A stretch of 40,591 bases of DNA from a virus. The notes beneath the pieces were generated by a model. That model worked only from the letters and a program-made list of their open reading frames with translations, was not told where the DNA came from and ran no database searches. The DNA lies in IMG/VR virus record IMGVR_UViG_3300002835_009153, positions 1 to 40,591 of that record; one strand, written 5' to 3'. The position numbers and the translations under genes were made by a program. Below are positions 29,025 to 35,135 of this stretch, one piece after another; position 1 is the stretch's first letter; every line of letters starts with the position of its first letter.

Positions 29025-29447
29025 CTAGAGGCCGTCTGCGGGAACCCACCCGCTGCCCCCTATGAAATCCCCGTCCTCACACAGGGCATCCTGCGCCTCC
29101 GTTTGGGACTTCCTGTAACTGTCCATGGCAGTCCTCTTATCAAAGAACGGTCCCATAACTTTACCGCTACTGTGATTCCAAACCCAACCTAGGTGTCTTG
29201 CGCTGTAGTAGATAACATCTTGTCCCATGGAAGGATCCATGCACCTCATATGGGAGATTTCAACATGATCTGAAATGATGTTATTGGCATCATATTCCAT
29301 GGGAAAGTGCTTGAGTAACCTAATTGCATTCTTTCGTACCGCACTCGGAATTTTCTTAACATAGTCAGGGCGACTAGGGTCACAGAGAGAAAGCAGAAAG
29401 TTCCTTGTGTTCACGATGGAAATGTATTGCTCGTATGGAAGTGTCAT
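29025..29447 (-). CDS. Hypothetical protein, leaderless early gene
   Basis: 140 residues. The N-terminal half is helical (EQYISIVNTRNFLLSLCDPS; AVRKNAIRLLKHFPMEYD), and the C-terminal half strand-rich with W residues (DVIYYSARHLGWVWNHSSGK, VMGPFFDKRTAMDSYRKSQ). The last part resembles domains that describe a displayed or measured context; no family is recognised. It has a perfect sigma-70 promoter (TTGACA/TATAAT) whose predicted +1 is one base before the ATG. No Shine-Dalgarno is present. Confidence 0.65.
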   Translation of the reverse strand: MTLPYEQYISIVNTRNFLLSLCDPSRPDYVKKIPSAVRKNAIRLLKHFPMEYDANNIISDHVEISHMRCMDPSMGQDVIYYSARHLGWVWNHSSGKVMGPFFDKRTAMDSYRKSQTEAQDALCEDGDFIGGSGWVPADGL

Positions 29448-29607: not shown

Positions 29608-31134
29608 ATGGCAACTTTTTACTGGCAAGGTCAAAGTATAACTGGAATTGCCAAATTCGATTGGAATTGTGTAGGTAACTGGAAAACTACTTATTTTAAC
29701 TACGGCGGAACTGGCCCAAGTTGGGGCTGGCAGTACATAGGAGCAACTGCTTGCCCCGGCGTTAACGATGCCGCACTTTTTGGAGTTTCTGCGTCACAAC
29801 TCCCTCCTCTAAATGCACTTTCCCCGTGTTTGTTTGGAGGATTTTCGGGAAATGTTTCAGGAGGAGTTTGGCTAGGTTCTGGCACTGCTCAAGCAGGAAC
29901 CATCGCAAATAGCAGTATTACTTCCGTATTGGCAACTTTAAAAAGAGGTGCGACAGGCAATACATATCCTTTTGCATATTTCGGAGGTGGTTTGACGGCA
30001 GAAGTTTTATCTTGGCTAATCTCTTATGGAGAATTTTCAGGGGAAACTGGATCTCTTCAAGATGATTCCATACTGGAGCGATGGGCCGGTTTCTCTGGAG
30101 ATCAAACCAGCCCGGCGGGAATCTCCGGTGGGAGAGCAATGGCACAAAGATCAAGACTGGGGACTAAATTAAAAGTTAGTGATACTTTATGGTTTAGACA
30201 CGATTCAGACAAGTCGATTATGATAAATGGAGTGAAATCTCTTCAAGATGTTGCAGGAACTACAGGTACTACGAGAATAGTTAAAACTAATTTCATCTCT
30301 GATGGTAAGGGATCGGTTTCACTTATTTCGGGAGTATATGCCACCATTTATAATTATGGTGTAGGGTCTTCTTTATACATGAAGGGACTGACTTGTGGTT
30401 ACTTCAGTACAGTACCAACTGCCACATATATTGAACCAGATGTTAAATTCAACCGAGTTGAAGTTGCAGGACAATATACTAATCCAATTTGGTTTGGTGG
30501 AACACTTGATACTCCATCAGTCATTAATGAACTTGGTGGATCAGGATTGGGAACAACTGGTATTTTCCAAGCAGAAGATGAATCATCAATTTTAATCCGA
30601 CCAATATTTAATTGGTGGTCTGGTGGTGGTCTACAAGGTCAACCTCAACCTTACTTTGTGTTCGGTATTCCTGGTTTAACTTCACAATTAGCAGTAGCAA
30701 AGAAAATTGAAATTGCGTCTGTTGATGGCAGTTTGTCTGGATCTACAACTGGAACCGCCGCTTGGAATTCAACATGGAATTTGACATTTGCCGGTGGTGC
30801 AAGTGCAGGAACAATTAAATGTGACTCTGCGATAGTTAGAGTTCTTGATGGAATTGACACAACAACAACTGTATCAATTGGTTCTATATTCATGGATAAG
30901 GGGTCGATACTTGATCTAGCGTCTGGTCGTGAGTTTGATAATTGGTTCTTCGGTTCAATAAGTGGAAATTCAATTCAAGGAGGAATTGTATTCGAAGATG
31001 AGAACTCAATTGTGAAAGGAAGCAATAATATCAGACTCTTCAATACACAAGTTGGACTTGGTAATAGATTGGATGTTCGTACCGCTAAAAAGAATAGCAA
31101 TACACTTACTTTAGGTGAGTCTGGTTTAATCTGA
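29608..31134 (+). CDS. Virion-like protein with YWxG/NW/PGxxD N-terminal pattern
   Basis: 508 residues, no charged core, rich in Gly, Ser, Thr and Asn, with regular beta-strand spacing. The N-terminus (FYWQG, GNWKTT, ACPGVNDAALFG) follows a pattern seen at the start of many phage structural proteins: YWxG ... W ... NW ... PGxxDxAxF. The middle and C-terminus (GVYATIYNYGVGSSLYMKG; SNTLTLGESGLI) fit an extended beta-solenoid or jelly-roll stack. It is likely a fibre or surface protein of the virion. It has its own late promoter, a GGAAACCCCCC leader and a double terminator, so it is an independent transcription unit. No family name is claimed. Confidence 0.75.
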   Translation: MATFYWQGQSITGIAKFDWNCVGNWKTTYFNYGGTGPSWGWQYIGATACPGVNDAALFGVSASQLPPLNALSPCLFGGFSGNVSGGVWLGSGTAQAGTIANSSITSVLATLKRGATGNTYPFAYFGGGLTAEVLSWLISYGEFSGETGSLQDDSILERWAGFSGDQTSPAGISGGRAMAQRSRLGTKLKVSDTLWFRHDSDKSIMINGVKSLQDVAGTTGTTRIVKTNFISDGKGSVSLISGVYATIYNYGVGSSLYMKGLTCGYFSTVPTATYIEPDVKFNRVEVAGQYTNPIWFGGTLDTPSVINELGGSGLGTTGIFQAEDESSILIRPIFNWWSGGGLQGQPQPYFVFGIPGLTSQLAVAKKIEIASVDGSLSGSTTGTAAWNSTWNLTFAGGASAGTIKCDSAIVRVLDGIDTTTTVSIGSIFMDKGSILDLASGREFDNWFFGSISGNSIQGGIVFEDENSIVKGSNNIRLFNTQVGLGNRLDVRTAKKNSNTLTLGESGLI

Positions 31135-31170
31135 TAGTTTTTAGTAGATAGACATTCAAAAATGCAACAG

Positions 31171-31192
31171 CCCCCCCGAAAGGGGGGGTTAT
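31171..31192 (+). terminator. C7-GAAA-G7 terminator of the 29608 gene
   Basis: Seven C (31171-31177), GAAA tetraloop, seven G (31182-31188), then TTATTGTT. It lies 36 nt after the stop. Confidence 0.85.
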
Positions 31193-31199
31193 TGTTATA

Positions 31200-31485
31200 A
31201 AAGAACCCCCTGCACAATTTCCGGATGTGCAGGGGGTCTTGGGATTCACGCACAACCCCATATTATTACGGCTCTTTATTCCGTAGTGCGGTACGGAACT
31301 GACTGACGGCAGTTGCAACTGCCGATTTTTCACCGGAGAGTGAAGTCTAGAATACACTCCCGAGCGTCAGGTGCCATCTGACTGAATATCAGTCAACGCT
31401 TCGTGCTTAATGGCCTATTTTACTTCGCACGAACGAAGGTGACTAGCCTTGGCGAACCAAGGCAGGGGCGAACCCTTTTCGTCAC
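31200..31485 (-). ncRNA. Candidate structured non-coding RNA (~285 nt), no known family
   Basis: This 520-nt stretch between 31134 and 31656 has no credible coding frame. On the minus strand it has a strong promoter (31492-31519) and ends at a terminator (31206-31236). From 5' to 3' the RNA can form: a GUGAC/GUCAC stem (31481-31485 with 31439-31443) enclosing two UUCG-loop hairpins (31466-31475; 31446-31463, 7 bp); a 7-bp stem 31427-31433/31400-31406; GCGU/ACGC closing a 7-bp hairpin 31389-31395/31379-31385; stems in 31333-31360; a 7-bp hairpin 31318-31324/31307-31313; and a 7-bp hairpin 31292-31298/31279-31285. The density of perfect stems and the tetraloops far exceed chance. It lacks the CCA end and the conserved start of tmRNA and has no tRNA arms. 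The role is unknown. Confidence 0.7.
31206..31236 (-). terminator. Terminator of the candidate ncRNA (bidirectional hairpin)
   Basis: CCCCCTGCAC (31206-31215) pairs with GTGCAGGGGG (31227-31236), 10 bp. On the minus strand TTCTTTT follows; on the plus strand TCTT follows, so it may also back up the 29608 terminator. Confidence 0.8.
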
Positions 31486-31491
31486 ACCCCT

Positions 31492-31519
31492 AGTATAGCG
31501 TCTTGCCCACCTTTGTCAA
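31492..31519 (-). promoter_or_regulatory. Sigma-70 promoter of the candidate ncRNA
   Basis: TTGACA (31514-31519) - 16 nt - TATACT (31492-31497) on the minus strand. The predicted start is near 31485, at the GGGGTGTGAC that begins the structured region; no start codon follows. Confidence 0.8.
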
Positions 31520-34664: not shown

Positions 34665-35135
34665 TTAACGGAATCTATTTCTCGGTTTCCTTGAAAGGAT
34701 CAATGATAACCCAAATAGGGCAATCGCCGCAGGGGCAGGGACAACAGGATCCGCCGCTACACCCCTGACAGATTCGGGATCAGGGGAGATCGACAGACAG
34801 ACGCTCTGGATGTAGTCATAGGCGATGGGGACGAACAGTTGTTGGTTGTCGGTTTTGAGTACCATAATAAGGTTACCATCCAGGTATACCCTATGTACCC
34901 AATAACCATCAAAGTCCCCCATAAAAATCATGGAAGGCATTTCGCTATAATTGGTTACTGCGTATTGCTGATAATAAAGAGATGGCGGATTGAGCATCTC
35001 AGATGAGAAATTGAACTTAGTCGGACTAAGTCCCATAACACCAACATAGTTAGACCCTTGATATAACGATGTCGATGAGTAACCGAAATTTTGATTGGTG
35101 AAATATAGTGTAGAACTTCCGTAATCCATTTTCAC
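34665..35135 (-). CDS. Protein with PEP-CTERM-like C-terminus but no signal peptide
   Basis: 156 residues from GTG 35135, which forms a GTGA overlap with the preceding stop; ATG 35129 is an alternative. The body is strand-rich and Tyr/Ser/Asn-rich (YGSSTLYFTNQNFGYSSTSL; DGYWVHRVYLDGNLIMVLK). Residues 131-156 are VVPAPAA, a hydrophobic helix (IALFGLSLIL) and a basic end (SRKPRNRFR): the three-part layout of PEP-CTERM sorting tails. No N-terminal signal peptide is present, so export is doubtful; it could be a truncated gene or an exported protein whose start is missed. No comparable start exists upstream in frame. Confidence 0.62.
   Translation of the reverse strand: MKMDYGSSTLYFTNQNFGYSSTSLYQGSNYVGVMGLSPTKFNFSSEMLNPPSLYYQQYAVTNYSEMPSMIFMGDFDGYWVHRVYLDGNLIMVLKTDNQQLFVPIAYDYIQSVCLSISPDPESVRGVAADPVVPAPAAIALFGLSLILSRKPRNRFR

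Follow-up and report, generated by a model that had tools for sequence, protein, structure and literature searches.

A gene for a structured small RNA in a T4-like phage joins a three-way junction to a pistol ribozyme

An RNA gene bounded by its own promoter and terminator

We analysed a 40.6-kb virus record of an uncultured phage, referred to throughout as the window, whose T4-like capsid protein matches the capsid of Pelagibacter phage HTVC008M at 63 %. Its minus strand carries, downstream of a gene for GDP-mannose dehydratase (GMD, PF16363), an RNA gene made up of a 5′ three-way junction (3WJ), a pistol ribozyme and a 3′ domain that ends in a terminator. A preliminary description of this DNA had proposed an autonomous structured RNA gene with a promoter and terminator of its own, and the whole gene was found beside the same neighbouring gene in at least four other IMG/VR contigs (L097, L131, L082 and L144, among the matches listed), retrieved by a pistol pattern. 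The promoter, read in that description as near-consensus, is of the sigma-70 type (TTGACA-16-TATACT, 31519-31492, minus strand) and has 11 of 12 consensus matches. As shuffled versions of the region yield 3.8 promoter-like sites by chance, the motif is little proof when taken alone; its position and spacing are conserved in nine loci, with a spacer of 16-17 nt and a gap of 6 nt to the RNA. An intrinsic terminator lies at 31199-31238 on the same strand, where the hairpin (31237-31205) has a stem of 13 bp, longer than the 10 bp first described, with UCCGGA in its loop and UCUUUU behind it. This terminator is strong and conserved in relatives. GMD has a terminator-like hairpin of its own (31603-31574, minus strand), which makes the RNA a separate unit. 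A second GC-rich hairpin (31169-31190) sits directly behind the terminator of the RNA gene, is terminator-like on the plus strand and is probably where transcription of the convergent 508-aa gene (29608-31134) stops.

The region 31200-31490 folds at -118.5 kcal/mol compared with -88.0 ± 5.1 kcal/mol for dinucleotide shuffles (z = -6.0), none of 200 shuffles being as good, and the stems covary in relatives, in agreement with the earlier argument that such a dense array of stems points to a selected RNA. Two small ORFs overlap the gene (31106-31357 and 30975-31253), but in relatives they are crossed by indels of 1-4 nt, so that this stretch is very unlikely to be coding. ARAGORN found no tRNA or tmRNA anywhere in the window; the preliminary description had seen neither a tRNA arm pattern nor tmRNA ends in the RNA gene.

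A pistol ribozyme at the centre of the gene

A covariance search against Rfam showed that the gene is less of an orphan than it had appeared. Positions 31438-31372 (minus strand) match the pistol self-cleaving ribozyme (RF02679) at 48 bits, against a gathering cut-off of 34.5 bits, and no other Rfam model matched above threshold. The match spans the full 68-position model, including P1, P2, P3, the pseudoknot and the AGCG core, and five related contigs score 43-52 bits. In an alignment of the window with L097, L082, L144 and L302, 99.1 % of cells are paired and 11 of the 22 pairs show double-sided change, compared with 2.7 expected by shuffling (0 of 500 shuffles as good). Three of these covarying pairs sit in the six-bp loop pseudoknot, and P1-P3 covary as well. 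By sequence and predicted fold the segment is a member of the known pistol class.

Pistol ribozymes cut within a two-nt P3-P2 junction, leaving a 2′,3′-cyclic phosphate and a 5′-OH, and across the class the length of this junction is fixed while its letters vary, being usually GU (PMC4604425). The Rfam alignment together with the published cleavage position predicts a cut at A31377^U31376 (31377-31376, minus strand). Junction length is kept among the relatives, which read AU in the window, GA in L082 and AU in L302; the window thus departs from the usual GU and has an A instead of the usual G before the predicted cut. It differs from RF02679 pistols also in being fused without a spacer to a new 3WJ within a stand-alone RNA gene.

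Pistols are common in phage contigs among the matches listed, and many others have no obvious gene close behind them in a crude survey that required a Shine-Dalgarno sequence and is indicative only. A pistol search of 50 contigs retrieved with the major capsid protein, mostly short fragments, found none. Some phage contigs carry several pistols close together, over stretches of several hundred to several thousand bases (L141 5421-7846, L133 308-1429 and L093 557-1131, among the matches listed). In the large phage contig L147 (250-621) genes for tRNA-Gln and tRNA-Pro lie ~150 nt behind a pistol, an arrangement reminiscent of the theta ribozymes found beside phage tRNAs.

A family of three-way junctions in related phages

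The first 47 nt of the RNA gene (31485-31439, minus strand, predicted +1 at 31485) form a 3WJ that directly adjoins the ribozyme. Its side-by-side UUCG hairpins within a closing GUGAC/GUCAC stem had been noticed before, and they are conserved. We fetched further relatives via the GMD protein and a small BPSL0761-family protein (NF041728), and among these the first 47 nt recur without the remainder of the RNA gene. Ten distinct variants from related IMG/VR phages could be aligned. In this alignment paired cells make up 92 % and double-sided change is seen at 10 of the 15 pairs, while shuffled alignments give a mean of 2.9 (0 of 500 as good) and sliding the partner by 1-3 columns leaves at most two such pairs. 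The closing stem alone occurs as GUGAC/GUCAC, CCGAC/GUCGG and GUGGC/GCCAC; hairpin b is less uniform, since half of the variants have an internal loop in place of its two middle pairs. In L289 and L290 the 3WJ DNA is 91-96 % identical to the window, compared with 74-75 % for the adjacent GMD coding DNA. The 3WJ thus changes at a slower pace than the protein gene beside it, a sign of strong constraint in this T4-like phage group. The BPSL0761-family protein itself (29025-29447, minus strand, E 8e-10 to NF041728) is conserved beside the 3WJ in several relatives.

The name orphan, first given to the whole gene, does not suit these 47 nt either, as their family has at least ten variants. No Rfam model matches the 3WJ, which within the reach of our searches is a new RNA family. 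Scanned with a model built from it, contigs of up to 168 kb each yield a single credible copy, a minimum statement given that many contigs are fragments. A further 165 capsid or pistol loci gave no match to the same model, and the 3WJ is therefore no general partner of pistols. Using the window region and the L304 3WJ as queries, blastn gave no match in annotated phages, and comparison of the 3WJ with plasmids gave chance matches of 18-19 nt only. The sole match to the 3WJ pattern in genome_contigs, in Gordonibacter (L291), is a chance one that lies at a gene start with the rest of the fold missing. The pattern TCAGTCAG...AAGAGCCNTAA added six contigs, all of unrelated coding sequence. We also considered a hammerhead ribozyme, likewise a three-way junction (core CUGANGA / GAAA / UH), and rejected it: Rfam gives no such match, and the hammerhead-like GUGACGA overlaps the covarying closing stem and is gone in L302, L304 and L325.

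Modular arrangement behind the promoter

In nine loci the distance from the -10 box to the start of the 3WJ is exactly 6 nt, which puts that start at the predicted +1 and would place the 5′ end of the transcript within the closing stem. A similar promoter lies 4 nt upstream of the 3WJ in L325 and a promoter-like sequence, read by eye, further upstream in L302; in L304 the usual place lacks a promoter and the 3WJ follows an ORF. What comes behind the 3WJ changes from locus to locus. In the window group it is the pistol and the 3′ domain, in L212 the 3′ domain without the pistol, and in L302 the pistol and then an AUG, with no spacer between 3WJ and pistol in the window, L097 and L302. L325 has a Shine-Dalgarno sequence and ATG behind the 3WJ. 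A terminator-like hairpin follows in L210, L211, L289 and L290, and in L304 after an ORF. The 3WJ and terminator of L289 and L290 end against a gene on the opposite strand, and the 3WJ is not a leader there. As far as our searches reach, the architecture of promoter, 3WJ, ribozyme and 3′ domain appears to be new.

In L302 (482-620) the 3WJ and pistol abut the start codon, and the predicted cut would yield an almost leaderless mRNA (UAAC-AUG) with no Shine-Dalgarno sequence.

A 3′ domain with self-complementary loops

Behind the predicted cleavage site, stems A and B and an A-rich junction form a second three-way junction (31299-31370, minus strand; CUGAC/GUCAG). It can be folded, in places with a shorter closing stem, in the window, L097, L082, L144 and L212, a fold in common although the stem sequences differ. 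MAFFT does not align stems A and B across lineages. Members of the window group additionally have stems C (31279-31298) and D (31241-31259), both on the minus strand, whose loops CGCAC (31290-31286) and GUGCG (31253-31249) are complementary. The helix between these loops shows a compensatory change, reading CUCGCAC/GUGCGAG in L097 and UUCGCAC/GUGCGAA in L082.

The loops of stem A, stem B and the terminator are self-complementary, with UCUAGA, UUGCAA and UCCGGA in the window, UCCGGA, UGUACA and CCGG in L082 and AUCGAU, CGGAUCCG and UUCGAA in L212. Counted with one closing pair where needed, at least 6 nt are self-complementary in loops A and B of all three lineages and in the terminator loop of two (eight of the nine loops), whereas among hairpin loops in shuffles the share is ~1.5 %. 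Over all 22 loops counted, P = 5e-5 for the excess, by a criterion set after looking, and P = 2e-8 for the nine loops, themselves chosen after looking.

A putative self-cleaved small RNA

The locus is a real, conserved small-RNA gene, and its product is probably self-cleaving, judging from the sequence. We consider it likely, with room left for other readings, that this is an autonomous gene in which the ribozyme splits a conserved 5′ RNA from a 3′ RNA and in which the 3WJ acts in trans. From the sequence, fold, covariation, conservation and modularity of the gene we infer transcription, cleavage and action in trans as follows. Transcription would run for ~285 nt, from about G31485 to near 31200, and give an RNA whose 5′ end lies in a blunt, fully paired 3WJ. 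Cleavage by the pistol at A31377^U31376 would leave a 5′ product of ~109 nt, consisting of the 3WJ and ribozyme core with a 2′,3′-cyclic phosphate end, and a 3′ product of ~175 nt with a 5′-OH end, the second three-way junction, the C-D loop helix and the terminator hairpin. The 3WJ would be the conserved working part, probably a trans-acting RNA that binds a protein or RNA polymerase, and the ribozyme would uncouple it from whatever is transcribed behind. Action in trans is suggested by the single copy and by a sequence that is kept while neighbours and cargo change, since an element acting in cis should stay linked to one gene.

The 3′ half may in addition assemble with itself through loops A and B and the terminator loop once the ribozyme has freed it from the 5′ part, which we regard as possible rather than expected. 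Loops A and B remain self-complementary despite sequence change in three lineages, the same sign used for OLE and GOLLD, where switching between palindromes supports homo-oligomers (PMC12286853). Against this, the lineages are only three, the criterion was settled on after looking, perfect inverted repeats with extended stems may simply account for some of the loops, and the homology of L212 relies on fold and short motifs. The fullest version, a self-cut transcript giving both a near-invariant trans-acting 3WJ regulator from +1 and a block that assembles via changing self-complementary kissing loops, is speculative and on the whole doubtful.

The 3WJ could serve as a leader in L302, L325 and perhaps L210 and L211. 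In L302 an AUG lies five nt past the predicted cut, and L210, L211 and L325 have a Shine-Dalgarno sequence and ATG behind the 3WJ. Extended to the family, the 3WJ would act in cis as the leader of an mRNA or the protector of its 5′ end, the ancestral mRNA being that of the small BPSL0761-family gene, with the ribozyme controlling the 5′ end of the mRNA and the window a derived case that has lost it. We find this unlikely, as a terminator precedes the next gene in the window, L097, L212, L289 and L290, and the differing neighbours in L325 and L304 mean that the 3WJ does not follow one gene.

A position at the predicted +1 behind a strong promoter would also suit an element of the nascent RNA that acts on its own RNA polymerase to suppress pausing or termination and is freed later by the ribozyme. 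The put RNA of phage HK022 is likewise a short structured phage RNA just behind a promoter, putL being ~70 nt long (PMC9378689), and in L210 and L211 the hairpin and gene behind the 3WJ leave no space for a further promoter. The RNA-polymerase-directed role, listed as possible in the preliminary description beside decoy, sponge and packaging RNAs, stays in play in this form as a rival. The 3WJ fits put in its place behind the promoter but not in its fold, for put consists of two long stem-loops (PMC9378689) of ~70 nt and the 3WJ is a three-way junction of 47 nt, in many cases followed at once by a terminator with no gene behind. The opposite orientation of the next gene in L289 and L290, the strength and conservation of the downstream terminator in the window and the lack of a promoter at the 3WJ of L304 make a put-like role quite improbable. 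A chance cluster of hairpins around an inherited pistol, with no further RNA function, would draw on the frequency of pistols in phage contigs and the many that lack a close gene, and is already disfavoured, to the point of being very improbable, by the covariation, the fold z-score and the conservation of the whole gene from promoter to terminator.

Relation to known phage and bacterial RNAs

What self-cleaving ribozymes do for phages has long been an open question. Theta ribozymes beside phage tRNAs are likewise self-cleaving phage ribozymes proposed to trim a neighbouring small RNA; they are HDV-like and adjoin tRNAs, whereas the window has a pistol beside a 3WJ and no tRNA (PMC10879173). 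A pistol adjoining a conserved RNA that exists with and without it suggests a candidate role, the splitting of a small RNA from variable cargo. OLE, ROOL and GOLLD have self-complementary loops that switch between palindromes, a trait that the 3′ domain may share, but are bacterial and phage RNAs of hundreds of nt that have been shown to assemble (PMC12286853), in contrast to a predicted RNA of ~175 nt known from sequence, and Rfam gave no match to any of the three. If its loops do assemble, it would be a natural RNA oligomer much smaller than these.

Elsewhere in the window, two phage proteins (34665-35135 and 36288-36947, minus strand) end in a PEP-CTERM-like tail (VPAP..., a hydrophobic stretch and an Arg-rich end). 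Such tails are unusual for a phage; NCBIfam gives a weak PEP-CTERM match (E 0.05) to the 34665-35135 protein only.
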